Positions 33,456-49,756 of a stretch of DNA of 58,498 nucleotides are shown here, piece after piece. Source of the stretch: Clostridia bacterium (GTDB lineage Bacteria > Bacillota > Clostridia > Oscillospirales > RGIG577). Under the pieces are notes generated by a model. That model did no database searches. It saw only the letters and a list, made by a program, of their open reading frames with translations, and was not told the DNA's origin. Position numbers and translations under genes: made by a program. The stretch's first letter is position 1. Every line of letters starts with the position of its first letter. The stretch covers positions 108,755 to 167,252 of the forward strand of contig JAFWDJ010000022.1 in NCBI GenBank assembly GCA_017513095.1, given 5' to 3'.

Positions 33456-36400
33456 TTAGTCCATGTATGCCAGATCGCCGGAAGCGGCGTTAAACAGCCT
33501 TGCGAGAAGGTCCAGTACGGTGCCCGCAATCGGAGGCTGTGCCTGCTGCGCGTCACCCTCTGCCTGCGGCTGTGCGAACGGCATCATCGGGGGAGCGAAG
33601 GGGAACCACTGAGGCTGCTGCGCCTGAAGCTGCGTCAGCTGATTCTGAAGCTGAGCCTGCATCTGTGCGGCCTGATTCTGCATGTAAACGGCCTGACTCT
33701 GCATCATCTGCTGAAGCTGAGCCTGCATCTGTGCGGCCTGACTTTGAATCTGAACGGCCTGATTCTGCATATAAATAGCCTGACTCTGCATCTCGGCCTG
33801 AAGCTGCTTCTGAAGCTGGGCCTGAAGCTGAGCCGCCTGTGCCTGCCACTGAGCCGCCTGCTTCTGAAGCTGATCCTGAAGCTGCGACGACTGATCTTTA
33901 AGCTGTACGAACGGAACCTGCCAGATTACCGGGGACAGATACTGCATGAACTGTGTGAACATGCGCGTTATATCCTCATACGTTAAAGGCGGCATACCGT
34001 TCTTATCGGGATCCTGCGACTGGCAGGGAATAATGCTCCAAAGCAAATCAAAAACCTCCTTTAAATCTATGCCGGCCTGCGAAAATACGCCCTGTGAAAA
34101 TGCCACCTGCGAAGAAGGACCGAAAGACTTTCCGGAGGACTTCTTCGTCGCATTCTTTTGAAGCGGATACATTGCGGCCAGTGCTTTTTTAAACTTATCT
34201 TCTATTTCGTCCGGTACGCCGGTGAGCGTTACGAGACGAAGGTCCGCGAGCTCAAGGCGAACGTCGACAAGACGTCCCTGTACGCGGATCGGCGTTACGA
34301 CATAGCACGTTCCCTTGTTCTCGCCCTTGAGGATGCGGTGTACGTCCACCTTTCCCGTTGCGGTGTAGGGAATGTCCTCCGTGATAACACACTGACCGGG
34401 AAGATTGGTATCCTTAATCTTGCCGTCTCGGATGAATACGTTGTACAGAGCCTGTCTTACGGTGTTGAGGCTCTGAAGCTGATCGCCTATGGTCTTTACA
34501 TAGAGCACGGGGAACGAGTCGTGCAGTATCTTGTCGTAGCTCGGAGCAAGCGCGCATGACTCTATGCCGGGCTGAGCGGATACGGCGGTCTCAACAAGGC
34601 CGGCGTCGAAGCGTATGCCCTCGTTGTTTACGAAATACTTATTCATGCGGCCTACGTAGGCAAGCGTGCCGTCCTCATTGACCTTTACCATGTCGTAAGT
34701 GTTGAGATACTGTTCGCCGTCTATCTTTTCGAGCTTGAAGAATACCTTCGAGCCTATCTTTCCGCAGCTTACCGAGGGAGATGCGATAAAGAGCACGCCC
34801 GTGCGCGGACCGTCCTTTAAGTCATAGTATTTCTTCTCGTCCTCGTCGTATATTTTTACCTTGACGCCGGACAGCGGACGGCCTATCGAGTCGTCGTCGC
34901 GCGAGGGGTCGGAAACGATGCACGCCGCGCCCGCCTCGGAGATGCCGTAGCCGTTTATGGTACGTGTCTTAGCGCCGCATTTCTTTATGAACTCGTCGTA
35001 GCGCTTTTTCGTTTCGGCGGAGTAATACGCGCCGCCGACGAATACAAAGGCGAACGCCGACAGATCGGGCTGCGGCAGTGAAAGCATCATCTTCTCCATC
35101 GTCCACGTGTTGCCGAAGTAGATGCTTACGCCGTAATATTCAAGCGCCTGCGAAAAGCGGGGATTTAAGTCGCCCAGCGGAATGGTCACGAGCTTTCCGC
35201 CGAAGGAAAGCGGCAGGTGAACCATGTCGACAAGTCCGTACGAGTACGACAGATCGAACGAAAGACAAGATACCGACTTACCGCGAAGCTGTGCGAAGCG
35301 CTTGTCGCGCAAAAGCCTTGCGACCGACTCGTTAAAGCCGCGGTCGGACAGCGGTATGGGCTTATGTACGCCGCTCGTCGTGCCGGAGGAGTGGATGATG
35401 ACCGCGGTGTCGTCGTTCTTGCCGCTGCCGTATGCTATGGGAGTCGCTTCGTATTTCTTAAGAAGCTCTTCCATGAACAAAACATCGAAGCGGCGCTTTA
35501 AGCGAAGGTAATTCACCGCGTTCAAGAAGTCGTAGCCCTGCGGCGCGAACGGATCGCCCGAGGGAGTCTGATACACGATTATATTGCGAAGGCCGAGTCT
35601 TTTCTTCGACTCAAGCACGCGCTCCATCACGCTCGGCTGTACCCACTGAGCGCAGAGAACGGCGTCCGTGATGCCTTCCTTTTTGATAAGATTTTCCCAC
35701 AGCTCCTCGTCGAGAAGATCGCCGAAATTGGCAACGGAAACGGAAACGCCCAGCATGTTAAGAGCGTAGATCATGAACACGGCTTTCGCGTCCGGAGTCG
35801 TTATAAGAACGACGCGGCTGCGCCTTTTTTCCGTGATGTTCAGAGCGGAGAATACCTCCGCGTAGCGCTCCCACATACGGAACATCTGACGGTATGTGAA
35901 CTCTCTTTTTCCCTGTACTATTGCCACCGCGTTGAGCTGCGCTTCCGTCTGGGAATTGAGCTCCTTTATGAACTGCCAGCTCTTCTGCTCGATTATCTCG
36001 CCGCTCTCGATACGGGCGGTCAGGGGATCAGCGGGCTCCGGATTATTCGGTGCTGTTTTTGCGGTCGGCGCCTTTGCGGTGCGCGCCGCCGGTTTGCTTG
36101 CCGGCTTTGCCGCTGCCTTTGCTGCAGCGGGTTTTGCCGCTTTCGCCGGTGCGGGTTTTGCCGCTTTCGCCGGTGCGGGTTTTGCCGCTTTTGCTGCCGC
36201 AGGCTTCGCCGCTTTCGCCGCCGCGGGCTTCGCCGCTTTTGCCGGTGCGGGTTTTGCCGCTTTTGCTGCCGCGGGCTTCGCCGCTTTCGCCGCCGCGGGC
36301 GCTTCGGGCGCTGCCGCCGCGGGCGCTTCGGGCACTGCCGCTGCGGGCGTTTCAGGCTCTGACGCCGCGGGCGTTTCGGGCACTGCGGCCGCGATTTCTT

Positions 36401-36479
36401 CGGTCTTTTCGGCTGCAGTATCGACGGCATCCGAGACCGTTTGCTCGTTTACCTGATTGGTGTTTTGCTCGTCGCTCAT
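33456..36479 (-). CDS. AMP-dependent ligase with Lys/Ala/Pro-rich N-tail and Gln-rich C-tail
   Basis: A 1007-residue protein started at ATG 36479 (AGGCAGG seven bases upstream); the frame is open ten codons further without a ribosome-binding site. Order: acidic Ala/Pro segment (about 20-62), a tail of some ten KAAKPA-type units (about 63-135), an ANL-superfamily adenylation domain (about 150-735) with the phosphate loop HSSGTTSG, GYGISEAG and YTATGKV near its end, a linker with a hydrophobic helix region, then about 110 Gln/Ala-rich residues with repeats such as QSQA.YMQNQA, and a short tail. The adenylation domain should activate a carboxylate; the substrate is unknown. The tails resemble histone-H1-like and phasin-like regions in composition only. 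Confidence 0.85.
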   Translation of the reverse strand: MSDEQNTNQVNEQTVSDAVDTAAEKTEEIAAAVPETPAASEPETPAAAVPEAPAAAAPEAPAAAKAAKPAAAKAAKPAPAKAAKPAAAKAAKPAAAKAAKPAPAKAAKPAPAKAAKPAAAKAAAKPASKPAARTAKAPTAKTAPNNPEPADPLTARIESGEIIEQKSWQFIKELNSQTEAQLNAVAIVQGKREFTYRQMFRMWERYAEVFSALNITEKRRSRVVLITTPDAKAVFMIYALNMLGVSVSVANFGDLLDEELWENLIKKEGITDAVLCAQWVQPSVMERVLESKKRLGLRNIIVYQTPSGDPFAPQGYDFLNAVNYLRLKRRFDVLFMEELLKKYEATPIAYGSGKNDDTAVIIHSSGTTSGVHKPIPLSDRGFNESVARLLRDKRFAQLRGKSVSCLSFDLSYSYGLVDMVHLPLSFGGKLVTIPLGDLNPRFSQALEYYGVSIYFGNTWTMEKMMLSLPQPDLSAFAFVFVGGAYYSAETKKRYDEFIKKCGAKTRTINGYGISEAGAACIVSDPSRDDDSIGRPLSGVKVKIYDEDEKKYYDLKDGPRTGVLFIASPSVSCGKIGSKVFFKLEKIDGEQYLNTYDMVKVNEDGTLAYVGRMNKYFVNNEGIRFDAGLVETAVSAQPGIESCALAPSYDKILHDSFPVLYVKTIGDQLQSLNTVRQALYNVFIRDGKIKDTNLPGQCVITEDIPYTATGKVDVHRILKGENKGTCYVVTPIRVQGRLVDVRLELADLRLVTLTGVPDEIEDKFKKALAAMYPLQKNATKKSSGKSFGPSSQVAFSQGVFSQAGIDLKEVFDLLWSIIPCQSQDPDKNGMPPLTYEDITRMFTQFMQYLSPVIWQVPFVQLKDQSSQLQDQLQKQAAQWQAQAAQLQAQLQKQLQAEMQSQAIYMQNQAVQIQSQAAQMQAQLQQMMQSQAVYMQNQAAQMQAQLQNQLTQLQAQQPQWFPFAPPMMPFAQPQAEGDAQQAQPPIAGTVLDLLARLFNAASGDLAYMD

Positions 36480-36539
36480 ACTGTAACCTGCCTTTCTTGT
36501 TATGATCATTTAGGGAATAATTTTTGTAACTGCCGAAGG

Positions 36540-36861: not shown

Positions 36862-38949
36862 TTACACTACGCTGTAAAGAAGCTTCGAATATGCCGGGTA
36901 GGGCCACTCGCTTTCCGGCATCATGCTCTCAAGCTCGTCGGACACGGTGCGAAGCTCGAGCATCGCGTTGAATATCGTGTCGTGATGATACCTTGCGCAG
37001 TCGAGAGCCTCGCTTACGTCCTTCGCATTTATAACGGCATCCTCGAGACTCGTAAGCTTATTGTAGAGGCACGACGAGAGCGCCGAAAGCTTCGTTACGA
37101 GCTTTGCCTCGAGCGCGGATTCAACGCCGATTTCCTTCTTCGTCTTAACGAGCTGTGAGAGCTTTGCCTCGTAGCCGAGTACCGACGGAAGGACGGACTT
37201 CTTTATCATGTCTATCATCGTCAGCGCTTCGATATGTATGGTCTTCGTGTAATTTTCAAGATAGATTTCATAGCGCGATTCGAGCTCCGTGCGGCTTAAA
37301 ACGTGATGGCGCTCGAAGAGCGAAACGTTCTTTTCGTCGAGCATGCACGGCAGAGCCTCGGGCGTCGATTTTAAGTTAAGAAGTCCGCGGCGCTCGGCCT
37401 CTTCTATCCATTCGTCGGAGTAGTTGTTGCCGTTGAACACGATGCGCTTGTGCGCCGAAAGCGTGCGGCGGATAAGGTCGTGTACATCCTTTGAAAGGTC
37501 CGTGCTTCCTTCAAGCTCGTCGGCGAACTGACCGAGCACTTCTGCCGCTATCGTATTGAGCACGATATTGGGACCCGATACCGAAAGTGCGGAGCCGGGC
37601 ATACGGAACTCGAACTTGTTGCCGGTGAACGCGAACGGGGAGGTGCGGTTTCTGTCGGTCGTGTCCTTCTGGAAGTGGGGCAGCACCTGTGCGCCCGTTT
37701 CCATGTTTATATGCTTTGCGGAGCTGTAGCCGGTGCCCTTTTCGATGGAATCGAGAATGGCCGAAAGCTCGTCGCCAAGGAACATTGACACGATGGCCGG
37801 AGGCGCCTCGTTCGCGCCGAGACGGTGATCGTTTCCGGCAGAGGCAACGGTTATGCGAAGCAGATCCTGATATTCGTCCACGGCCTTTATGACGGCGGTG
37901 AGGAAAAGTAAAAACTGCGCGTTCTTCTCGGGCTCGGCGCCGGGCTCCAAAAGGTTTTTGCCCGTATCGGTCGATATCGACCAGTTGTTGTGCTTGCCCG
38001 AGCCGTTTACGCCCGCGAACGGCTTCTCGTGGAGCAGACATGCCATGTCGTGCTTGTCTGCGATGCGCTTCATAAGCTCCATCGTGAGCTGGTTGTGGTC
38101 GGTCGCAATATTCGTTTCGCTGTATATGGGCGCAAGCTCGTGCTGCGCGGGAGCGACCTCGTTATGCTTCGTCTTTGCGAGCACGCCGAGCTTCCACAGC
38201 TCGCGGTCGAGCTCCTTCATGTATTCGGAAACTCTCGGCTTTATGGCGCCGAAGTAATGATCCTCCATCTCCTGTCCCTTGGGCGGGCGCGCGCCGATAA
38301 GCGTTCTTCCGCAGAAGATCAGGTCGGGGCGCTGAAGGAACGCCTTCTTGTCAACGAGGAAGTATTCCTGCTCGGGGCCGACCGTTGTAATGACGCGCTT
38401 TACGTCCTCGTTTCCGAAAAGCTTGAGTATGCGCATTGCCTGGCGGTCGAGCGCCTCCATCGAACGAAGCAGCGGAGTCTTCTTGTCGAGAGCCTCGCCC
38501 GAATATGCGCAGAACGCCGTGGGTATGCAGAGCGTGTTGTCCTTTATGAACGCATAGGAGGTGGGGTCCCACGCGGTATAGCCGCGCGCCTCGAACGTAG
38601 CTCTGAGTCCGCCGGACGGGAAGCTCGAGGCGTCGGGCTCGCCCTTAACGAGCTCCTTGCCTGAGAATTCCATTATAACGGAGCCGTGACCGTCGGGGGC
38701 TATGAAGCTGTCATGCTTTTCCGCCGTTATGCCGGTCATCGGCTGGAACCAGTGCGTAAAGTGCGTTGCGCCCTTTTCAATGGCCCAGTCCTTCATCGCG
38801 CTCGCAACTACCATTGCAACATCCTTTTCAAGGTGCCGTCCGCTTTCTATCGTCTTTTTAAGCGCCTTGTAGGTGTCCTTGGGAAGACGCGAGCGCATTA
38901 CGTTATCGTTAAATACCATACTTCCGAAAATTTCGGGAATGCCGTTCAT
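36862..38949 (-). CDS. glnN: Type III glutamine synthetase
   Basis: GSIII makes glutamine from glutamate, ammonia and ATP as a large dodecamer. The 695-residue length is typical of GSIII and much longer than GSI (about 440). Key regions: [18 protein letters not shown] (GSIII signature), [37 protein letters not shown] with the ATP/metal site, and [20 protein letters not shown] is preceded by AAAGGAG. It lies 40 bases downstream of asnA in one minus-strand operon controlled by the shared leader. Confidence 0.96.
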
Positions 38950-38989
38950 TTTAATTTCTCCTTTCCCATAAATGCCATCATCGTTTCGT

Positions 38990-39997
38990 CTATAACAGCT
39001 CTATGCCCGCTTCGGCGCATTCGCTTAACGTCTTGTCGTCCCATATAGATACCTGTACCTCGCCTATATGCGCCTTCTCCAAAAGCAGCATACAGAGCCT
39101 CGACTGGCCTATGCCGCCGCCCATCGTAAGAGGAAGCGTGCCGTCCAAAAGAAGCTTATGGAACATAAGAGCACGGCGCTCGTTGTGTCCCGATTTTTCA
39201 AGCTGATACGAAAGCGAATCCGCGTCGACGCGGATGCCCATGCTCGATACCTCGAACGCGCAGCCCAGCGTGTCGTTCCAGAATATGATGTCGCCGTTTA
39301 AATGCCAGTCGTCATAGTCGGGCGCGCGTCCGTCGTGGGAGCGTCCGTCCGCCAGCGTGTCGCCTATGTGCATAACGAACGTCGTCTTGTGCTCGCGCAC
39401 GTATGCCTCCTCGCGCTGCTTCGGAGTCTTGTCGGGATACATTTCGCAAAGCTGCTCGGAGGTAACGAACGAAACGTCGCGCGAAAGCGTAGTCGTAAGC
39501 GCGGGGAAGAAGTCGTTTATGCGGTCCTTCGTGTCGCATATCGCGTTCACTATCTTTTGAACCGTTTCCTTAAGGTGCTCCTCATTGCGCGAACGCTTGT
39601 CTATTATAACCTCCCAGTCCCACTGATCGACGTAGATCGAATGAAGGTTGTCCATGTCCTCGTCGCGGCGTATCGCGTTCATGTCGGCGTAGAGGCCCTC
39701 GCCCACGGAAAAGCCGTACTTGTAGAGCGCCATGCGCTTCCACTTCGCAAGCGAGTGGACTACCGCGCCCACGGTACCCGTTTCCTTTATGTCAAAGCTT
39801 ACAGCCCTCTCAACGCCGTTTAAGTCGTCGTTTAAGCCCGTGCCGGGATCGACGAACAGCGGGGCGGATACGCGCGAAAGGTTCAAAGCGCGCCGCAGAT
39901 TGTCCTCAAAGGCCCTCTTCGTAAGGCCAATAGCCTTTTGCGTGTCGTAAATAGACAGCTTCTTCTTATAGCTTTTCGGTTTAATAAGCTTGCTCAT
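38990..39997 (-). CDS. asnA: Aspartate-ammonia ligase (asparagine synthetase A)
   Basis: AsnA makes asparagine from aspartate, ammonia and ATP, without glutamine. I start at ATG 39997 (GAGGTGACC upstream); the frame is open for 19 more codons that include the leader. The 335 residues are the usual length, with [25 protein letters not shown] (typical, seen in pieces), [11 protein letters not shown], the class-II-synthetase-like core YVDQWDWE, and [10 protein letters not shown] at the ATP site. First gene of asnA-glnN, divergent from the glutamate synthase run. Confidence 0.96.
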
Positions 39998-40026: not shown

Positions 40027-40072
40027 AAAAAAACGCCGTGCGTGGCAGTGCCACACACAGCGCCTTTGCTGT
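40027..40072 (-). promoter_or_regulatory. asnA leader: AAAGGC-loop hairpin overlapping a terminator
   Basis: Right at the predicted 5' end of the transcript, ACAGC-AAAGGC-GCTGT forms a 5-bp stem with a six-base loop (A at 1, G at 4), at 40072-40057. Its 3' arm is reused by a 13-bp terminator stem CGCTGTGTGTGGC/GCCACGCACGGCG (40062-40034) followed by seven T residues. The two folds exclude each other. The hexaloop fits the ANTAR-protein RNA rule (A1, G4); a clear second hexaloop hairpin is not seen. Confidence 0.72.
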
Positions 40073-40082
40073 TTACGCTGAC

Positions 40083-40112
40083 ATTGTAGCACGGCCGATT
40101 TTCGTTTGTCAA
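40083..40112 (-). promoter_or_regulatory. Promoter for asnA-glnN
   Basis: On the minus strand TTGACA, 18 bases, TACAAT. The predicted start of transcription is about four bases before the AAAGGC hairpin. Confidence 0.85.
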
Positions 40113-40188: not shown

Positions 40189-40217
40189 TTGACTTTATCC
40201 GCTTTCGGGTATATACT
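40189..40217 (+). promoter_or_regulatory. Promoter for the glutamate synthase-dapL run
   Basis: TTGACT (40189-40194), 17 bases, TATACT (40212-40217). The predicted transcription start near 40224 is about two bases before the AAAGGC hairpin, the same geometry as the divergent asnA promoter. Confidence 0.87.
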
Positions 40218-40225
40218 GACTACAC

Positions 40226-40286
40226 AATGAACAAAGGCGTTCATTCGAGCACACAGAGTATGTGTGTTCGGGTGAGCGCCTTTTTT
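40226..40286 (+). promoter_or_regulatory. Glutamate synthase leader: AAAGGC-loop hairpin overlapping a terminator
   Basis: AATGAAC-AAAGGC-GTTCATT (40226-40245) is a perfect 7-bp hairpin with the same hexaloop as the asnA leader. Its loop and 3' arm form the 5' arm of a terminator, AAAGGCGTTCA (40233-40243) pairing with TGAGCGCCTTT (40273-40283), followed by T residues. An inner hairpin GAGCACACA/TGTGTGTTC sits between them with a loop of about five bases. Antiterminator and terminator are mutually exclusive, as in ANTAR-controlled leaders. Confidence 0.75.
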
Positions 40287-40325: not shown

Positions 40326-41432
40326 ATGAACGATACGGTAATAGAAGGCCAAGTGCGCATTCCTTCCGGGTGCGCCATTTCGGGCATTTTCTCAAGATCG
40401 GGAAAGAGATTTTCGGGCGAGAGCATAATCCGCTCGATAGAAGTAATGCACGACCGCTCGAACGGTCTGGGCGGCGGCTTTGCGGGCTACGGGATATATC
40501 CCGAGTACAAGGATTATTACGCCTTTCATATATTTTATGACACCCTGAAAGCGAAACGCGACTGCGAGGAGTTTTTGGAGCGTCACTTCGATATTATAAA
40601 CCTTTCAAAAATACCCACTACAAAAGTTAAGGAGATAACGAACGAGCCGCTCATCTGGCGCTACTTCGTTCTGCCGCTTCCCACGAAGCTTTCGGAAAGC
40701 CAGCTTACCGAGGAGGAGTTCGTCGTAAAGTCGGTCTTCCGCATAAATACCGATATAGAAGGCGCGTACATCTTCTCGTCGGGCAAGAATATGGGCGTTT
40801 TCAAGGCCGTGGGCTTTCCCGAGGACGTAGGACGCTTTTACCGCCTCGACGAATACGAGGGCTACTGCTTTACGGCGCACGGACGTTACCCCACGAATAC
40901 GCCCGGCTGGTGGGGCGGCGCGCATCCGTTCGCGCTTCTCGATTATTCGATAGTACATAACGGCGAAATTTCGTCCTACGACGCGAACCGCCGCGCGATA
41001 GAGATGTACGGCTACAAATGCACGCTTCAGACGGATACCGAGGTAATAACGTACATATTCGACTACCTTCACAGGAAGGTGGGGCTTACGCTCGGGGAGA
41101 TCGCGTCCGTCGTGGCCGCGCCCTTCTGGCAGACGATAGGTCAGATGGACGCGCCCGAAAGGGAGCGCCACGAATACTTAAGAAACATGTTCGCCTCGCA
41201 GCTCATAACTGGTCCGTTCTCGATACTCGTGGGCTTTTCCGGCGGACTTATGGCGTTAAACGACAGGCTGAAGCTTCGCTCGATGGTCGTGGGCCAGAAG
41301 GACGACATGGTATATATGGCAAGCGAGGAGTCGGCGATAAGAATAATAGAGCCCGACCTCGATTGGATACGCTCACCGCGCGGCGGCGAGGCGGTCATCG
41401 TAACTCTTGACAAGAACGCATCGGAGGTGTGA
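40326..41432 (+). CDS. Glutamate synthase, class II amidotransferase subunit (split archaeal-type)
   Basis: Releases ammonia from glutamine for the FMN subunit. I start at ATG 40326 (GGAGGTG upstream), not at the longer open frame. In the 368-residue product the nucleophile is probably Cys16 in IPSGCAISGIFS, exposed after removal of a 15-residue propeptide as in GltB. FTAHGRYPTNTPGWWGGAHPF and VHNGEISSYDANRR (in pieces) are the typical glutaminase loops. It is the first of five consecutive genes that together make up what is one large subunit plus a reductase in bacterial GltB/GltD. Confidence 0.92.
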   Translation: MNDTVIEGQVRIPSGCAISGIFSRSGKRFSGESIIRSIEVMHDRSNGLGGGFAGYGIYPEYKDYYAFHIFYDTLKAKRDCEEFLERHFDIINLSKIPTTKVKEITNEPLIWRYFVLPLPTKLSESQLTEEEFVVKSVFRINTDIEGAYIFSSGKNMGVFKAVGFPEDVGRFYRLDEYEGYCFTAHGRYPTNTPGWWGGAHPFALLDYSIVHNGEISSYDANRRAIEMYGYKCTLQTDTEVITYIFDYLHRKVGLTLGEIASVVAAPFWQTIGQMDAPERERHEYLRNMFASQLITGPFSILVGFSGGLMALNDRLKLRSMVVGQKDDMVYMASEESAIRIIEPDLDWIRSPRGGEAVIVTLDKNASEV

Positions 41433-41435
41433 GAA

Positions 41436-42941
41436 ATGGCTATTGAATTCATGTACCCCGAATACGAGGTCTTAAGAGACCCCGACAGATGCATAAGATG
41501 CCGCGTGTGCGAGCGTCAGTGCGCAAACGAAGTGCATACGTATCTGCCCGAAAAGGACAGGATGATATCGGACGATCTAAAGTGCGTCAACTGCCACCGC
41601 TGCGCAACGCTCTGCCCCACGCGCGCAATAAAGATAGTAAAGTCTCCGCATACGTTCAAGGAGAACGCGAACTGGGGACAAAAGGAGATAACGGAAATAT
41701 ACAAGCAGGCGTCGAGCGGCGGCGTGCTGCTTTCGAGCATGGGCAATCCCGAGAAGTATCCCGTATACTTCGACAAGATGCTGCTTAACGCGTCTCAGGT
41801 CACGAATCCTTCGATTGACCCGCTTCGCGAGCCTATGGAAACGCGCGTATTTTTGGGCGGCAAGACCCACGAGATAAAGCGCGACGAAAACGGCAGGCTC
41901 ATTCCGATAAAGAGAGTGAAGCTCGAGCTTTCGATGCCCGTAATGTTCTCGGCCATGAGCTACGGCTCGATAAGCTATAACGCGCACGAGTCGCTCGCGC
42001 GCGCCGCACGCGAGCTCGGAATATTCTACAACACCGGCGAGGGCGGCCTTCACGAGGACTTCTACCAATACGGAAGCAATACGATAGTACAGGTTGCGTC
42101 GGGACGATTCGGCGTTCATAAAAAGTACCTCGACACGGCGGCCGCAATAGAGATAAAGATAGGCCAGGGCGCAAAGCCCGGCATAGGCGGCCATCTGCCG
42201 GGCGAAAAGATAGTGGGCGACGTTTCGCGCACGCGCATGGTGCCCGAGGGCGCCGACGCGATATCGCCCGCGCCGCACCACGACATATATTCGATAGAAG
42301 ACCTGCGGCAGCTCGTATATTCGCTCAAGGAGGCGACGAATTACACGAAGCCCGTATTCGTAAAGATAGCCGCCGTTCACAACATCGCGGCCATTGCAAG
42401 CGGTATCGCGAGAAGCGGCGCTGACGTTATAGCGATAGACGGCTTCAGAGGCGGCACGGGCGCGGCTCCGACAAGGATACGCGACAACGTGGGCATACCG
42501 ATAGAGCTTGCGCTTGCGTCGGTAGATACGCGGCTTAGGGAAGAGGGCATACGCGACCGCGTGTCGCTCGTCGTTGCGGGCAGCATAAGAAGCAGCGCGG
42601 ACGTATTCAAGGCCGTGGCATTAGGCGCGGACGCCTGCTACATCGGTACGGCGGCGCTTCTCGCACTTGGGTGCCACTTATGCCGCACGTGTCAGACAGG
42701 CAGGTGTAACTGGGGCATTGCAACGCAGCGTCCCGACCTTGTGAAGCGCTTAAATCCCGATCTCGGTTATCAGCGGCTCGTAAACCTTCTCACCGCGTGG
42801 AACCACGAGATAAAGGAGCTTATGGGCGGCATGGGCATAAACTCGATAGAGAGCTTAAAGGGCAACAGGCTTATGCTCAGAGGCGTGGGCCTTACACAAA
42901 AAGAGCTTGACATTTTAGGAATAAAGCATGCGGGAGAATAG
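41436..42941 (+). CDS. Glutamate synthase, FMN-binding subunit with N-terminal ferredoxin domain
   Basis: A 501-residue protein. Two 4Fe-4S motifs at the N-terminus (CIRCRVCERQC and CVNCHRCATLCP) precede the FMN barrel (FSAMSYGSIS; GEGGLHED; GQGAKPGIGGHLPGEK in pieces; AIDGFRGGTGAAP), and the 3Fe-4S-type cysteines follow in GCHLCRTCQTGRCNWG. This is the archaeal-type GltB core that combines 2-oxoglutarate with ammonia to give glutamate, with electrons entering through the ferredoxin clusters. It begins three bases after the amidotransferase stop. Confidence 0.94.
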   Translation: MAIEFMYPEYEVLRDPDRCIRCRVCERQCANEVHTYLPEKDRMISDDLKCVNCHRCATLCPTRAIKIVKSPHTFKENANWGQKEITEIYKQASSGGVLLSSMGNPEKYPVYFDKMLLNASQVTNPSIDPLREPMETRVFLGGKTHEIKRDENGRLIPIKRVKLELSMPVMFSAMSYGSISYNAHESLARAARELGIFYNTGEGGLHEDFYQYGSNTIVQVASGRFGVHKKYLDTAAAIEIKIGQGAKPGIGGHLPGEKIVGDVSRTRMVPEGADAISPAPHHDIYSIEDLRQLVYSLKEATNYTKPVFVKIAAVHNIAAIASGIARSGADVIAIDGFRGGTGAAPTRIRDNVGIPIELALASVDTRLREEGIRDRVSLVVAGSIRSSADVFKAVALGADACYIGTAALLALGCHLCRTCQTGRCNWGIATQRPDLVKRLNPDLGYQRLVNLLTAWNHEIKELMGGMGINSIESLKGNRLMLRGVGLTQKELDILGIKHAGE

Positions 42942-42953
42942 GGGTGTTGGTTT

Positions 42954-43382
42954 ATGAAGAGAGTATACGTAAACGAAAAATGGTGCCTCGGCTGCCACCT
43001 GTGCGAATACAACTGCGCGTTCTCAAACTCGGGCGGCAGGGATATGGCCACCACGCTTATGGGTGTTAATATCCGGCCCAATATAAGAGTTGAAGAGGGC
43101 GAGGGAGTGTGCTACGCCGTATCGTGCCGCCACTGCGAGGATCCGCTGTGCGTCAAGGGCTGCATAGGCGGCGCGCTCTCGATTGAGGACGGCGTTATCG
43201 AGATAGATAAAAGCAAATGCATACACTGCTACACCTGCATTGTCATGTGTCCCTACGGGGCGGTAATGCCGTCCGAGGACGGCGCCGTGCAGAAGTGCGA
43301 GCTTTGCGTAAAGACGAAGAAGGGCACGCCCGCCTGCGTTGCGGGATGTCCCAACGGCGCGATAGTATTTGAAGAGAGGTGA
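42954..43382 (+). CDS. 4Fe-4S polyferredoxin subunit
   Basis: A 142-residue electron carrier with cysteine groups CLGCHLCEYNC, CRHCEDPLCVKGC, CIHCYTCIVMCPYGAV and CELC...CVAGCPNG, consistent with up to four 4Fe-4S clusters, as in HycB/DmsB-type ferredoxins. It sits between the FMN and FAD subunits and probably passes electrons between them. GGTG lies upstream of the ATG; the downstream reductase starts seven bases after its stop. Confidence 0.9.
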   Translation: MKRVYVNEKWCLGCHLCEYNCAFSNSGGRDMATTLMGVNIRPNIRVEEGEGVCYAVSCRHCEDPLCVKGCIGGALSIEDGVIEIDKSKCIHCYTCIVMCPYGAVMPSEDGAVQKCELCVKTKKGTPACVAGCPNGAIVFEER

Positions 43383-43389
43383 GCCGAAG

Positions 43390-44619
43390 GTGAAATACGT
43401 AATAATAGGAAACGGCCCTGCGGCCATCGGCGCGATAGAGGGAATAAGAAAGAAGGACAAAAAGGGCGCCATCACGCTCATATCGAAGGAGCCGCATCAC
43501 ACGTATTCGCGGCCTCTCATATCGTATCTCCTTTTGGGAAAGACCGACGAGGAGAGGATGAAATACCGCCCCGACGGCTTTTATAAGGACAACGGCGTCG
43601 ACGTCATGCTCGGCGTGACGGCAGAAAGCATTGACCCCGTCCGCCAGACGGTAAAGACGGACAAGGGAAAGGTGCCCTACGACAGGCTTCTTATTGCGGC
43701 GGGCTCGCGCCCGTTCATACCGCCGATGAAGGGCTTTGACGCCGTCGAAAAGAAGTATTCGTTCATGACGCTCGACGATGCGAAGGCCTTATCCGAAGCG
43801 CTTACGCCCGAAACGAGGGTGTTAATCATCGGCGCGGGTCTTATAGGCTTAAAGTGCGCCGAGGGCATATCGGGGCTCTGCGGTCACATCGCGGTGGTGG
43901 ACCTTGCCGACAGGATACTTTCGAGCATCTTAGACCGGGAAGCGGCCGCGGTCGTTGAAAAGTCATTACGAGAGCACGGCATGGAGTTTTACCTTTCCGA
44001 CAGCGTGGAGGAGTTTAAGGGCGGCCGCGCGCGATTAAAGAGCGGCAAAACGATAGAGTTCGACGTACTCGTCACGGCAGTCGGCGTAAAGGCGAATATA
44101 AGCCTTGTAAAGGACGCGGGCGGCGCGTGCGAGCGCGGCATAATCGTAAACGACCACATGGAAACGACGGTAACGAACGTCTACGCCGCGGGCGACTGCG
44201 CGCAGGGCACGGACTGTGTCACCGGCCAGAGCCGCATACTTGCGCTCATGCCCAACGCCTATATGCAGGGCGAATGCGCGGGACGCAACATGGCGGGCGA
44301 GCCCGGAGCGTTCGATCGCGCGATGGCGCAGAACGCGATAGGCTTTTTCGGGCTTCATATGGTCACGGCGGGTGCATACGAGGGCGAGGTATACTTCGAG
44401 CGCGGCGAGGGGCTTTATAAAAAGCTCTTTTACAGGGACGACAGGCTTATGGGATATATAATCATCGGAGACATACGGCGCGCGGGCATCTACACCGCGA
44501 TGATACGCGACCGCACGCCGCTTTCGGGCATAGATTTCGAGCTTATATGTAAGGACCCGTCTTTACTCCCCTTCGGGAAGAAGAGACGCGCCGAAATGCT
44601 TGGAGGTGTAAAGAATTGA
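43390..44619 (+). CDS. FAD-dependent NAD(P)H oxidoreductase subunit
   Basis: A 409-residue pyridine-nucleotide-disulfide-type flavoprotein. The start is GTG 43390 (GAGAGGTGAG upstream), giving KYVIIGNGPAAIGAIEG, the N-terminal FAD-binding fold. VLIIGAGLIGLKCAEG is the NAD(P)H-binding fold, and VYAAGDCAQG is the second FAD motif. It lacks the redox-active Cys pair of disulfide reductases. It should feed NAD(P)H electrons to the polyferredoxin and FMN subunit, like GltD. Confidence 0.9.
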   Translation: MKYVIIGNGPAAIGAIEGIRKKDKKGAITLISKEPHHTYSRPLISYLLLGKTDEERMKYRPDGFYKDNGVDVMLGVTAESIDPVRQTVKTDKGKVPYDRLLIAAGSRPFIPPMKGFDAVEKKYSFMTLDDAKALSEALTPETRVLIIGAGLIGLKCAEGISGLCGHIAVVDLADRILSSILDREAAAVVEKSLREHGMEFYLSDSVEEFKGGRARLKSGKTIEFDVLVTAVGVKANISLVKDAGGACERGIIVNDHMETTVTNVYAAGDCAQGTDCVTGQSRILALMPNAYMQGECAGRNMAGEPGAFDRAMAQNAIGFFGLHMVTAGAYEGEVYFERGEGLYKKLFYRDDRLMGYIIIGDIRRAGIYTAMIRDRTPLSGIDFELICKDPSLLPFGKKRRAEMLGGVKN

Positions 44620-45344
44620 AGACGATAAACGCGGACAGAATGCACTTTAAAACGCTTAACGACACGGTACGCGAAGCGGCCGCATCCGAAAAGAATATAA
44701 CGATAGACAACTGCATGGGACAGCGCTACATCGCGGCGGGACTTTCCAATACGACGATAAAAATAAACGGCACTCCCGGAAACGCCCTCGGAGCTTACTT
44801 AAACGGAGCCGGCATAGAGGTATACGGAAACGTTCAGGACGCCGTGGGCGACACGATGAACGACGGAAGGATAACCGTTTTCGGCTCGGCGGGAGATGCT
44901 TTGGGATACGCGATGCGCGGCGGCAGGATATACGTAAAGGGCAACGCGGGATACCGAACCGGCATACACATGAAGGAATACCGAGACAAGGTGCCCGTGA
45001 TAGTTTTGGGCGGCTCGGCAGGCTCGTTTTTGGGCGAATACATGGCGGGCGGCGTAATAATAGTTTTGGGACTTGACACAAATGTTCCCATTGTGGGAAA
45101 CTTTACGGGGACGGGTATGCACGGCGGAAAGATATTCTTACGAACGGACACGCTGCCGAAAAATCTTCCTGAGCAGGTCTCGGCGCACGACGCCGAAAAG
45201 GAGGACATGGACGAGGCTTACGAGATTCTAAAGGAGTATACGGAGATATTCTCCATGGACCTAAAGGCCGTAATGTCCGCTCACTACTACGTTTTAAAGC
45301 CGAACGCCAAGAACCCGTATAAACGAATGTATACCCCAAATTAG
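44616..45344 (+). CDS. Glutamate synthase GXGXG-domain subunit
   Basis: A 242-residue right-handed beta-helix protein corresponding to the C-terminal GXGXG domain of GltB: the repeating pattern NALGAYLNGAG, DAVGDTMNDGR, DALGYAMRGGR, RTGIHM, SFLGEYMAGG and GNFTGTGMHGG is diagnostic. The start is TTG 44616, overlapping the previous stop (TTGA), with GGAGGTG seven bases upstream. It completes the split glutamate synthase. Confidence 0.93.
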   Translation: MKTINADRMHFKTLNDTVREAAASEKNITIDNCMGQRYIAAGLSNTTIKINGTPGNALGAYLNGAGIEVYGNVQDAVGDTMNDGRITVFGSAGDALGYAMRGGRIYVKGNAGYRTGIHMKEYRDKVPVIVLGGSAGSFLGEYMAGGVIIVLGLDTNVPIVGNFTGTGMHGGKIFLRTDTLPKNLPEQVSAHDAEKEDMDEAYEILKEYTEIFSMDLKAVMSAHYYVLKPNAKNPYKRMYTPN

Positions 45345-45355
45345 GAGGAGCATAA

Positions 45356-46627
45356 ATGAAATACGCGAAGCAGGAAGTCAAAGACTTTATTTCGGAAAAC
45401 GACGTAAAATTCATACGCCTTGCGTTTTGCGACGTTTTCGGTATGCAGAAGAATGTTTCAATAGTGTCGAGCTCGTTTGATCACGCCGCCGACTGCGGCA
45501 TATCGTTCGACGCGTCGGCCGCAGGCGCGCTGTCGAGGGACGATTTAAACGACCTTATCTTAAAGCCCGACCTTTCCACGCTGTCGGTGCTTCCGTGGCG
45601 GCCGTCGCAGGGACGCGTTGTAAGGCTTTTCTGCGATATTGAGAAGCCGGGCAAAACGCCGTTCGAATGCGATACGCGCGCCCTTCTCAAGCGCACGGAG
45701 GAGAGGCTAATGAATGCGGGATATAAGGCGCAGATAGGCACGAACTGCGAGTTTTATCTCTTTAAAACGGACGAGAACGGCGACCCCACGAAGGAGCCGC
45801 ACGATTTCGGCGGCTATCTCGATATGCAGCCGCTCGACAGGGCGGAGAACGTGCGCCGCGAGATATGCTTTACGCTTGAGGAGATGGGCATCTCGCCCCA
45901 GTCGTCGCACCACGAGGCGGGACCGGGACAAAACGAGATAGACTTTAAATACGCCTCTCCGATAGAGGCGGCGGACAACTTCATAACGTTCAAGTATGTT
46001 GTAAAATCCATCGCGGCAAGAAACGGGCTTTACGCCTCGTTCATGCCGAAGCCGTTCCCCGAAAAGAACGGAAACGGGCTTCATATAAACATCTCGCTTA
46101 CGAAGTGCGGCGAAAACATTTTCGACAAAAAGAGCCGCTTTTACGGCGAGGCGCGCTCCTTTATCGCGGGAGTGCTCGCGCGCGCGAAGGAAATAACCGC
46201 CGTATTAAACCCCACGACGAACAGCTACGACCGCTTCGGCCGCTTTGCGGCGCCGAGCGTTGTATCGTGGTCGTGCGATGACAGAAAAAGTATGCTCCGC
46301 CTGCCTTCCCAGGCGGGAGAGACGAGAATGGAGCTTCGTTCTCCCGATTCGGCTACGAATCCGTATCTTGCGTTCGCGCTCGTGCTTTCGGCGGGCCTTT
46401 ACGGCATCGAAAACGGACTCGAGCTTGACGAAAGCATATCCGAGCCGCTTCCGAGAAGCTTAAAGGAAGCGCTTGATATAATGAAAAAGAGCGAATTTTC
46501 AAAAAGTGTGCTTGGAGACGATATTTTTGAGAGCTTTATCATAGGAAAATCCCGCGAGGTGGAGGCGTTCGAGGTTTCGACGAACAGGGAAGCCTTTTGC
46601 GACAGAATGTATTTTGTCCGCATTTAG
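45356..46627 (+). CDS. glnA: Glutamine synthetase, type I
   Basis: A 423-residue GSI. Landmarks are FIRLAFCDVFG near the N-terminus, TNCEFYLF, HHEAGPGQNEIDF (Glu and His ligands), NGNGLHINIS, NPTTNSYDR and RMELRSPDSATNPYLAF. GGAGGAG precedes the ATG. With the upstream synthase it forms a complete GS-GOGAT cycle. A second, type III enzyme is encoded by glnN; the presence of both suggests division of labour by ammonia level, which is inference. Confidence 0.95.
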   Translation: MKYAKQEVKDFISENDVKFIRLAFCDVFGMQKNVSIVSSSFDHAADCGISFDASAAGALSRDDLNDLILKPDLSTLSVLPWRPSQGRVVRLFCDIEKPGKTPFECDTRALLKRTEERLMNAGYKAQIGTNCEFYLFKTDENGDPTKEPHDFGGYLDMQPLDRAENVRREICFTLEEMGISPQSSHHEAGPGQNEIDFKYASPIEAADNFITFKYVVKSIAARNGLYASFMPKPFPEKNGNGLHINISLTKCGENIFDKKSRFYGEARSFIAGVLARAKEITAVLNPTTNSYDRFGRFAAPSVVSWSCDDRKSMLRLPSQAGETRMELRSPDSATNPYLAFALVLSAGLYGIENGLELDESISEPLPRSLKEALDIMKKSEFSKSVLGDDIFESFIIGKSREVEAFEVSTNREAFCDRMYFVRI

Positions 46628-46661: not shown

Positions 46662-47231
46662 ATGGACAGCGTTCTTATAGTGTCGTCAAACGATAAAGCG
46701 GCCGAGCTTCTTACACCAATGCTTATACAGAACGGGATCGAAAGTATAATGACCGTAAAAACGGCGGGCGAGGCGCGCCGCATAACGATAGAGCGCGAAT
46801 TTGACCTGTGCATAATCAACGCTCCGCTGTCCGACGAAACGGGCGAGCAGTTAAGCCGCAACATAGCGCAGGACGGCGAAAGCCAGGTGATACTTTTAGT
46901 GCGCGCGGAGCTTGCGGAGGACGTTGCGAACGCCGTCGAGGGAGAGGGTGTGCTCGTCGTTGGAAAACCTATCCAGCGCGCCGTTATGGGAAGCGTACTG
47001 AGGCTTGCGAGGGCGTCTTTTAACAGAATTTCCGCGCTTCGTACAAAAAATAAGGCGCTGCTGCGCAAAATAGAGGACATAAGACTGATTGACAGAGCCA
47101 AGTGTATCCTGATAGAATATTTAAGGATGAGTGAGACCGAAGCGCATCATTACATCGAAAAACAGGCGATGGATATGAGGCAGACAAAGCGCGAGGTCGC
47201 GCTCGACATTCTTAAAACTTATGAGGAGTGA
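46662..47231 (+). CDS. ANTAR-domain regulator with degenerate receiver domain
   Basis: A 189-residue protein: a response-regulator-like fold (1-118) and an ANTAR RNA-binding domain (about 125-187; IEDIRLIDRAKCILIEYLRM, then ETEAHHYIEKQAMDMRQTKREVA in pieces). The receiver lacks the N-terminal acidic pair (VSSND instead of the usual DD) and has Asn53 (DLCIINAPL) at the phospho-acceptor position; only Lys102 (GKP) remains. It is therefore unlikely to be phosphorylated normally. ANTAR proteins promote antitermination by binding leader hairpins with A1/G4 hexaloops; such hairpins stand before this operon and before asnA. GGGGGGAG upstream. Confidence 0.9.
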   Translation: MDSVLIVSSNDKAAELLTPMLIQNGIESIMTVKTAGEARRITIEREFDLCIINAPLSDETGEQLSRNIAQDGESQVILLVRAELAEDVANAVEGEGVLVVGKPIQRAVMGSVLRLARASFNRISALRTKNKALLRKIEDIRLIDRAKCILIEYLRMSETEAHHYIEKQAMDMRQTKREVALDILKTYEE

Positions 47232-47236
47232 TTTTT

Positions 47237-48667
47237 GTGGATAATATGTGTAAGCTGCATGAGGAATGCGCAGTATTCGGTGTAAGCACAAAAGAGCTTC
47301 AGGAAGCGGCCGGTATTACTTACAACGGACTTTTGGCCCTGCAGCACAGAGGTCAGGAGGGAGCGGGCATAGCCGTGCTCTCCGGAAACAAGATAATTTA
47401 TCAGAAGAACGCGGGCCTTGTAGCCGAGGTATTCTCTAATCAGGCGGTATCGAAGCTGCCGAAGAGCCGCGTAGCCGTGGGACACTGCCGTTACTCGACG
47501 ACGGGCACGTCGTCCAATGCGAACATTCAGCCCTTCGTTACGGAATACTTAACGGGGCGCATCGCGACTGTGCACAACGGCAATCTCGTGAACGCGAAGA
47601 TTCTGCGTCAGACGCTTGAGGAGCGCGGCGTAAGATTTACCGCGACGAGCGACTCCGAGGTAATATCCTCTCTCGTGGCCTACGAGACGATAAGAGAGGG
47701 CAACGACGTTATAAAGGGCGTAAAGAACGCGGGCAATATCCTTTCGGGCGCGTTTTCCGTCTGCATCCTTTCAGGCGACGGAAAGCTTATCGCGATGCGC
47801 GATCCGTGGGGCTTCAGACCGCTGTGCATAGGCAGAAATGAATGGGGCCTTGCAGTGGCAAGCGAGACGTGCGGCCTTGACGCGCAGGATTTTGAGTTCA
47901 TACGCGACGTTGAGCCCGGCGAGATAATAGTAATAGAAAACGGTGAGATAACTCATACCGATACGATAAAGACAGACCAAAAGAGCAGCTTATGCATCTT
48001 TGAATACGTATACTTCGCGCGTCCCGACTCCGTAGTGGACGAGCTCTCGGTATACGAGGCGCGCTTCAATATGGGCAGAACGCTGGCGCGCGAACATCCC
48101 GTGGAGGCCGACGTAGTCTGCGGCGTACCCGACAGCGGCCTTGAGGCTGCGGCGGGCTTTGCGGCCGAGAGCGGCATACCGCTTGCGTCGGGCTTCGTAA
48201 AGAACAGATATATGGGCAGAAGCTTCATCTTCCCGACCCAGGCGCAGCGCGAAAAGGCCGTAAGGCTTAAGTTAAATCCGCTTGCGATAAACGTAAAGGA
48301 CAAGCGCGTGGTGCTCGTAGACGACTCCATCGTGCGCGGCACGACGTGCGCGCGCATTATAAAGAGCCTGCGCGACGCCGGCGCAAAGGAGATACATTTC
48401 CGCGTATCCTCGCCTCCGTTCAGACACACCTGCCACTTCGGCACCGACGTTGACTCGGAGGACAAGCTCATCGCAAATCAGATGAGCATTGAGGAGATAA
48501 GAAAGAAGATTGACGCCGATTCGCTTGGTTATATAAGCCTCGGCGGCATGAAGAAGGCATGCTCGGGCTGCAAGCTCGATTTCTGCGTGGGCTGCTTTAC
48601 GGGCTTTTATAACGTGGGCTTTGAAAATCTCGGAATAAACAAGCAGGAGCTTGAGGAGACGGAATAA
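47237..48667 (+). CDS. purF: Amidophosphoribosyltransferase
   Basis: The first step of purine synthesis, making phosphoribosylamine from PRPP and glutamine. I start at GTG 47237 (GAGGAG eight bases upstream), so the nucleophile is Cys11 in HEECAVFG after a short propeptide. AVGHCRYSTTGTS, VHNGNLVN and the PRPP loop VVLVDDSIVRGTT are canonical. The C-terminal Cys residues (KKACSGCKLDFCVGC) match the 4Fe-4S type of Bacillus PurF. It overlaps the ANTAR gene region closely; the rest of the pur pathway is not in this window. Confidence 0.95.
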   Translation: MDNMCKLHEECAVFGVSTKELQEAAGITYNGLLALQHRGQEGAGIAVLSGNKIIYQKNAGLVAEVFSNQAVSKLPKSRVAVGHCRYSTTGTSSNANIQPFVTEYLTGRIATVHNGNLVNAKILRQTLEERGVRFTATSDSEVISSLVAYETIREGNDVIKGVKNAGNILSGAFSVCILSGDGKLIAMRDPWGFRPLCIGRNEWGLAVASETCGLDAQDFEFIRDVEPGEIIVIENGEITHTDTIKTDQKSSLCIFEYVYFARPDSVVDELSVYEARFNMGRTLAREHPVEADVVCGVPDSGLEAAAGFAAESGIPLASGFVKNRYMGRSFIFPTQAQREKAVRLKLNPLAINVKDKRVVLVDDSIVRGTTCARIIKSLRDAGAKEIHFRVSSPPFRHTCHFGTDVDSEDKLIANQMSIEEIRKKIDADSLGYISLGGMKKACSGCKLDFCVGCFTGFYNVGFENLGINKQELEETE

Positions 48668-48670
48668 GAT

Positions 48671-49756
48671 ATGAAAAAAGCGTATCTTGTATTGGAAAAC
48701 GGGTGTGTCTTTGAAGGCACACCCTTCGGCAAAGAGGCGGACGTTACGGCCGAGGTGGTATTCACCACGGGCATGACGGGCTACCTTGAAACACTTACCG
48801 ACAAAAGCTATCACGGGCAGATAGTTGTTCAGACCTTCCCGCTTATCGGGAATTACGGCGTGATCCCCGCGGATTTCGAGGGCGAAGTTATCGCGCCGAG
48901 CGCTTATATCGTGAAAGAATGGTGCGAGGAGCCGTCTAACTTCCGTTCGGAGGGCGACCTTGGCACCTTTTTTAAAGAGCGCGGCGTCGTGGGGCTTTCG
49001 GGCATAGACACGCGCACGCTCGTTACGATGATACGCGAGAGCGGCGTTATGAACGGCATGATAACGTCCGACCCCGCGCGCGCCGACATGGAAAAGATAC
49101 GTGCGTACAGGGTCGAAAAATCGGTAGAGAGCGTATCGACGGCAGAGCCGTACGAGCTAAAGGCCGAAAACGCGCGCTTCAGAGTCGGGCTTTTCGACTT
49201 CGGCTTAAAGCGAAACATCGCGCGCTCGCTTAACGCGCGCGGCTGCGACGTTTTCATTCTGCCGTATGACACGAAGCCCGAAACGGTAAAGGATTTGGCC
49301 CTCGACGGCATAATGCTCTCGAACGGCCCCGGCGACCCGGCGGACAACACGGGCGTTATAAGCAATTTAAAGGAGATATCGTCGCTTCGCATACCCACGT
49401 TCGGCATCTGCCTCGGGCATCAGCTTCTGGCGCTTTCGCACGGGTTTAAGACCGAGAAGTTAAAATACGGTCACAGAGGCGCAAATCAGCCCGCGAAGGA
49501 CTTAACGACGGGCAAGGTTTACATAACAAGCCAAAACCACGGCTACGCCGTTGTGTCGGATTCGATAGACCCCGCCGTTGCGTCAGAGCTTTTCATAAAC
49601 GCGAACGACGGCACATGCGAGGGCATAGAGTATAAGACAGAGCCCGCCTTTTCGGTGCAGTTCCATCCGGAGGCGTGCGCGGGCCCGCGCGATACGGAGT
49701 TTCTGTTCGACAGATTTGTAGGGCTCATGGAGGTGAATAAAAATGCCTCTCGATAA
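48671..49756 (+). CDS. carA: Carbamoyl-phosphate synthase small subunit
   Basis: The glutaminase subunit that supplies ammonia to CarB for pyrimidine and arginine synthesis. The 361 residues contain the N-terminal domain (LENGCVFEG.PFG; EVVFTTGMTGYLE; QTFPLIGNYG in pieces) and a class I amidotransferase with intact GICLGHQLLA (nucleophile Cys) and QFHPEA (His and Glu). It starts three bases after purF and overlaps carB by 14 bases. Unlike PyrG here, it keeps the catalytic Cys. Confidence 0.96.
   Translation: MKKAYLVLENGCVFEGTPFGKEADVTAEVVFTTGMTGYLETLTDKSYHGQIVVQTFPLIGNYGVIPADFEGEVIAPSAYIVKEWCEEPSNFRSEGDLGTFFKERGVVGLSGIDTRTLVTMIRESGVMNGMITSDPARADMEKIRAYRVEKSVESVSTAEPYELKAENARFRVGLFDFGLKRNIARSLNARGCDVFILPYDTKPETVKDLALDGIMLSNGPGDPADNTGVISNLKEISSLRIPTFGICLGHQLLALSHGFKTEKLKYGHRGANQPAKDLTTGKVYITSQNHGYAVVSDSIDPAVASELFINANDGTCEGIEYKTEPAFSVQFHPEACAGPRDTEFLFDRFVGLMEVNKNASR

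Follow-up and report, generated by a model that had tools for sequence, protein, structure and literature searches.

The ANTAR targets at eutP, eutG, eutS and eutA of E. faecalis, nasF of Klebsiella and amiE of Pseudomonas have two hexaloops (PMC3369931). The mechanism of ANTAR antitermination is unsettled. The genetics of eutP demands two hairpins, both being required for antitermination in vivo (PMC3369931), whereas in the EutV–RNA structure a dimer can hold only a single hexaloop at any one time (PMC8934654); the latter study asks whether single-hexaloop targets exist. By SPR, EutV binds single and dual RNAs about equally well, with micromolar affinity, and in the model of Walshe et al. P1 is needed only as a recruiter. 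NasR binds a single hairpin only at ~12 μM (PMC7496416). The EutV structure thus implies that a single hairpin is physically enough for binding (PMC8934654); as eutP needs two hairpins and NasR is weak on one, a switch with only one hairpin requires something more. One-hairpin targets would be missed by published searches, in which two hairpins were a requirement. ANTAR control of clostridial GS-GOGAT was suggested earlier (PMC4676874, which cites work on nitR).

The window, the whole 58-kb stretch of DNA analysed here (58,498 nt), contains asnA-GSIII on the minus strand, divergent from glt-glnA-ANTAR-purF-carAB on the plus strand. We consider it very probable that the glt leader attenuates transcription under protein control, has only one ANTAR hexaloop and is read by the ANTAR protein encoded in the same operon; this function is inferred, without binding or transcription data. 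A consensus scan places the σ70-type promoter of the operon (TTGACT-17-TATACT) at 40189-40217 (plus strand), with +1 predicted near 40224. The putative antiterminator, recognised from the sequence, covariation and a loop-agnostic scan, is a single ANTAR-type hexaloop hairpin at 40226-40245 (plus strand; AATGAAC-AAAGGC-GTTCATT). The 7-bp stem is perfect and the hexaloop AAAGGC has A1 at 40233 and G4 at 40236. The hairpin begins at about +3, ~2 nt past the transcription start, which is predicted and not mapped. The intrinsic terminator (40233-40286, plus strand; sequence and covariation) pairs 40233-40255 with 40261-40283 around a loop at 40256-40260 and has its U-tract at 40281-40286. The loop and 3′ arm of the hairpin, AAAGGCGTTCATTC (40233-40246), pair over 14 bp with GGGTGAGCGCCTTT (40270-40283), and this outer part runs unbroken into an inner hairpin with the five-base loop GAGTA, giving a helix of 23 pairs, 19 of them Watson–Crick. 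The TTTTTT of the U-tract overlaps the last three paired bases. Since the hairpin loop and 3′ arm serve as the 5′ arm of the terminator, with 40233-40245 common to both, the two structures exclude each other. In isolation the energies are −5.2 kcal/mol for the antiterminator and −35.9 kcal/mol for the terminator; the latter is far more stable and is thus the expected default. An earlier note on this DNA had claimed a perfect 7-bp hairpin with an A1/G4 hexaloop about two bases from the predicted start, its mutual exclusion with a terminator and an inner hairpin with a five-base loop, all of which these positions bear out. The terminator it described overlaps as claimed, but was given as 11 bp; the helix is 23 bp, of which 14 bp lie outside the inner hairpin. 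No further A1/G4 hexaloop hairpin of at least 3 bp is found in the glt leader. Within the window, an A1/G4 hexaloop hairpin overlapping a terminator occurs at exactly two sites, glt and the divergent asnA, compared with 0.05 per dinucleotide-shuffled window.

All genes of the glt operon lie on the plus strand. The first (40326-41432; Pfam PF00310) encodes the subunit of glutamate synthase with a glutamine amidotransferase (GATase_2) domain. The remaining glutamate synthase genes (41436-45344; Pfam for the Glu_synthase and GXGXG subunits, otherwise ORFs; gaps of at most 12 nt) are those of the FMN/Glu_synthase subunit (41436-42941, Pfam), a ferredoxin-like protein (42954-43382, ORF), the FAD oxidoreductase (43369-44619, ORF) and the GXGXG subunit (44616-45344, Pfam). 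glnA, encoding type I glutamine synthetase (45356-46627; PF00120/PF03951), is directly 5′ of the ANTAR gene. purF, carA and carB-dapF (47228-53792; ORFs with gaps of at most 3 nt or overlaps) apparently belong to the same transcription unit as glt. carB and dapF share one uninterrupted frame of 1349 aa (49743-53792, plus strand), in which ~1070 aa of CarB are followed directly by DapF-like sequence from MRLDFIKMHG, possibly a natural fusion. Another genome of the order (G019) has dapF with its own single-hexaloop leader (L177).

The asnA leader repeats the glt design with another stem. On the minus strand, a promoter scan gives TTGACA-18-TACAAT at 40083-40112, followed by a single hexaloop hairpin (40057-40072; acagc-AAAGGC-gctgt, from the sequence) whose loop and 3′ arm are common with an 18-bp terminator (40029-40067). 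It contains no second A1/G4 hexaloop hairpin. The asnA hairpin is the same in the genus and in two further genomes. Located 3′ of the leader are asnA, encoding aspartate–ammonia ligase, and a GSIII-type glutamine synthetase gene (36862-39997, minus strand; PF03590, PF12437). A second asnA, 61% identical, is located elsewhere in the genome (G000:C31:119047-120045); it has no model match and apparently no leader. On the same strand of the window, an ORF of 1017 aa (33456-36509) apparently encodes an AMP-binding enzyme, judging from its translation, with a repetitive Ala/Lys/Pro-rich N-terminus and a repetitive Gln/Met-rich C-terminus.

The proposed reader of the hairpin, for which there are no binding data, is a pseudo-receiver ANTAR regulator of 189 aa (46662-47231, plus strand). 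It matches PF03861 with 58 bits (cut-off 27.3) and is the only ANTAR protein encoded in the genome, its gene being located within the glt operon beside glnA. The protein consists of a receiver-like domain and an ANTAR domain. The AlphaFold model (pLDDT 95) has the receiver fold, and its best match in the PDB is RNA-bound EutV (6ww6 chain B), then Rv1626 and AmiR. We aligned 55 ANTAR proteins with two reference proteins. The phospho-acceptor Asp is replaced by Asn53 in the window protein and by Asn in 45 of the 55; it is kept in four, including that of L089, which has a single-hexaloop leader. The first acidic residue of the receiver pocket is replaced by Ser, Thr or Ala. The equivalents of the EutV contacts M172, K149, A148 and E160 are invariant, and the positions of K143 and K147 are Arg or Lys. 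The position of Y164 is His in 54/55, as in AmiR. Arg142 of EutV, which contacts G4, corresponds to Ile or Leu, and Arg168 to Glu; the loss of Arg142 is a point against the ANTAR reading.

Upstream regions of related glt operons were fetched by protein, so that their selection was blind to the RNA. A first pass found the hexaloop–terminator switch in 64 of the 96 regions. In a loop-agnostic scan of the relatives, which accepted any loop of 3–9 bases, a hexaloop was present in 45 of 53 switches, with A1/G4 in 42 of these 45; the A1/G4 rule is therefore no product of the filter. A set of 75 leaders was gathered mostly via the glt protein (mostly glt, plus asnA, amt and others; the doubtful automatic calls L006, L008, L056 and L062 were left out of the pair counts). 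All 75 retain the C-G closing pair and the three stem pairs next to it, partly as a selection criterion, in stems of several kinds (GAAC/GTTC, GAGC/GTTC, CAGC/GCTG, GGAC/GTCC, AAGC/GCTT and AAAC/GTTT). The 3′ arm of the terminator, as the third partner, changes along with these stem variants. For 29 aligned leaders, the antiterminator pairing holds in 97.2% of cells (84.3% when shuffled) and the terminator pairing in 95.7% (78.8% when shuffled), values reached in 0 of 500 shuffles in either case; slid controls were far lower. The shuffle counts are optimistic owing to the kinship of the sequences, a problem that affects neither the slid controls nor the changes seen inside a single genome. Order-wide, the C-G closing pair is present in 97/97 leaders and the stems covary, so that structure is kept rather than sequence. 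Matches to GARCAAWGRYGTTC at nine further loci (L175, L176, L179, L180, L182, L186, L188, L189 and L191) were rejected, having no promoter or terminator; they are apparently chance matches in coding sequence. Five related glt leaders (L067, L072, L079, L080 and L088) carry, besides the hairpin-proximal promoter, another good one ~50 nt further upstream, TTGACA-18-TATTAT in all except L080, where the spacer is 17 nt.

A first search of the genome with a loose AAAGGC pattern was uninformative, and a covariance model of the leader was used instead. It found five strong sites, upstream of glt, asnA, amt, a C26 glutamine amidotransferase gene and a gene for a protein with a PPDK_N domain. Each leader has one hexaloop and a σ70 −10 box 7–10 nt upstream. 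That of amt, the ammonium transporter gene, measures ~43 nt through the end of the U-tract; that of the fifth gene (L224, G000:C44:27721-27782) precedes a protein in which the PPDK_N domain is located in the C-terminal part and the N-terminal half is unassigned. In relatives, the same leader is found before amt, glnA, gltA, carA and the genes for CTP synthase, DapF, an adenylosuccinate lyase-like protein and an Lrp-like regulator (names read from translations). A phylum pattern with the exact promoter was too strict (2/398 genomes), and breadth was measured with the covariance model, which matches 122 of 394 genomes and 73 of 168 genera of the order. In another genus, two model matches (L271 and L293, G720:C6:480474-480773) on opposite strands, ~150 bp apart, resemble the divergent glt/asnA arrangement of the window. 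A single dimer bridging the divergent glt and asnA transcripts was considered and rejected, since most leaders stand alone.

The glt leader might be an ordinary dual-hexaloop ANTAR leader with a P1 that is hidden, has degenerated in its loop or stem, or is formed by the inner terminator helix. Antitermination targets that have been studied by experiment do carry P1 and P2 (PMC3369931), and both hexaloops are present in one relative (L060:7785-8000; tgaac-AAAGAT-gttca, a 9-nt linker, then tgaac-AAAGGC-gttca). However, the geometry leaves no room for P1: in 87 of 97 distinct order-wide leaders the hairpin starts 5–12 nt after the −10 box. The −10 region is part of the covariance model, which could bias it towards such promoter-proximal sites; for glt leaders fetched without regard to the promoter, the −10 box is 5–12 nt upstream in 48/64, compared with 5% in shuffles. 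In the 97 leaders, second A1/G4 hexaloops do not exceed the chance level, with 2 seen and 2.4 expected from shuffles at the 4-bp threshold and 4 seen and 5.7 expected with 3-bp stems. A pattern for the tandem consensus, which covers the commonest stems only, matched 0/394 genomes. Neither the glt nor the asnA leader of the window has a P1, and among relatives the inner terminator helix differs greatly in both length and sequence, which speaks against it as a substitute. We regard a hidden P1 as improbable. L060 is the only dual-hexaloop glt leader seen; its P1 is located at the predicted +1 and its ANTAR protein is of the same type (57% identical), and therefore P1 was gained or lost within one family and cannot be ruled out for every member. 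As P1 was tested for and is absent, the glt leader is classed as a single-hexaloop variant, outside the dual-hexaloop family.

A real attenuator need not be read by an ANTAR protein, and another RNA-binding protein, a small ligand or effects of the start site and NTPs could act on it. Binding data are lacking, and leaders are present in genomes in which no ANTAR protein was found (G007, and the asnA leader of G017). Against such a reader, the loop in the loop-agnostic scan has the features of an ANTAR target (A1, G4 and a closing C-G pair). Of 78 genomes, the leader is present in 34 of 53 with and 2 of 25 without an ANTAR gene (odds ratio 21, p = 2e-6, kinship uncorrected). One of the two exceptions, G056, is model-positive, yet no hexaloop switch is recognisable on inspection (L331); the other, G007, has a convincing leader in a genome that is 90% complete. 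At many loci of relatives the ANTAR gene is located inside or beside the glt operon, and a search of Rfam gave no relevant family and no riboswitch match. We give a non-ANTAR reader little credence. Stem-loops at the 5′ terminus can protect mRNA, and the hairpin, being at the extreme 5′ end, could be merely a stabilising element in front of a constitutive attenuator. Stabilisation alone would not account for a hexaloop fixed at A1/G4, for the C-G closing pair or for the conservation of a 3′ arm that is shared with the terminator; moreover, the leader hairpins are weak (−0.2 to −5.4 kcal/mol). We consider this explanation barely tenable. The ANTAR reading of the leader is thus well supported by comparison of sequences, while binding and antitermination remain inferred. 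The earlier note had proposed this reading, with only one clear hexaloop, and named loss of the hexaloop or of the overlap in relatives as grounds for refutation. Both are kept in the 75 and the 97 leaders, and no second hexaloop appears above chance. The covariation check it suggested revealed compensatory changes in antiterminator and terminator, and the sole ANTAR gene in the same operon and the co-occurrence point the same way.

For the preferred ANTAR switch, we propose the following mechanism. Without help the terminator would win, and RNA polymerase would halt ~63 nt downstream of the start. Under nitrogen shortage, a pseudo-receiver ANTAR dimer would grip the A1/G4 hexaloop as it emerges and hold the hairpin, and the polymerase would read into glt-glnA-ANTAR-purF-carAB. 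Readthrough would increase the amounts of glutamate synthase and glutamine synthetase as well as that of the ANTAR protein, which closes a positive feedback loop. The other four leaders with a single hexaloop, those of asnA, amt, the C26 amidotransferase gene and the PPDK_N-domain gene, would be targets of this protein too. No upstream recruitment hairpin (P1) would be used, and the time for binding would be short (~43 nt in the amt leader). A pseudo-receiver dimer that is constitutively available, and whose own operon amplifies it, could dispense with P1, although this is an inference. Since the receiver no longer has a phospho-acceptor, the ANTAR protein probably receives its signal by protein–protein contact. 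The neighbouring glutamine synthetase (GlnA) is a first candidate for the partner, but this is a guess based on gene adjacency only.

Beyond the window, we think it likely that antitermination by ANTAR proteins with a single hexaloop at the first transcribed bases is clade-wide; the dual-hexaloop rule would then not be general, P1 would be dispensable, and a pseudo-receiver dimer would act on one hairpin within ~43–63 nt of RNA. No description of a single promoter-proximal hexaloop of such breadth was found in the searchable literature, from which subscription journals are largely missing, and a prior description is not excluded. A natural, widespread one-hairpin switch, with a regulon of five operons and one ANTAR protein, is a clean system for studying the roles of P1 and of dimerisation, and the dual leader L060 is a natural comparison for P1. 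The one-hairpin leaders also supply very short protein-controlled attenuators. They also point to a regulator of core nitrogen assimilation in dozens of Clostridia-type genera, most of them uncultured, although these include the cultured species Herbinix hemicellulosilytica, Acetivibrio mesophilus and Thermoclostridium caenicola.

LicT/BglG with the RAT hairpin resembles the glt leader in that one protein-stabilised hairpin overlaps a terminator (PMC3369936), but protein and RNA recognition are unrelated, RAT being a bulged stem of ~29 nt without a hexaloop. For nitR of C. acetobutylicum and Clo1313_2030 of C. thermocellum, PMC4676874 describes an ANTAR gene in the GS-GOGAT cluster, as in the window, and a proposed antiterminator of ammonia-assimilation genes, again as in the window. 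NitR-type regulation is probably the same physiological system; within the accessible literature, however, neither a single promoter-proximal hexaloop as its RNA target nor its regulon across genera has been defined. AmiR-type proteins share with the window protein a receiver-like domain without the phospho-acceptor Asp, a long coiled-coil helix, an ANTAR domain and His at the position of EutV Tyr164. Unlike AmiR, the window protein has no AmiC-like neighbour; its gene adjoins, and is probably co-transcribed with, those of glutamine synthetase and glutamate synthase, and it would control several operons via a target with one hexaloop, whereas the amiE leader has two (PMC3369931). The leaders of known ANTAR targets have, like the glt leader, a short stem, an A1/G4 hexaloop, a C-G closing pair and a hairpin that overlaps the 5′ arm of an intrinsic terminator, and they control nitrogen genes. 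They have two hexaloops, whereas the new leaders have one, located at about +1 to +5 without an upstream P1 or linker, and that of amt measures only ~43 nt in all.
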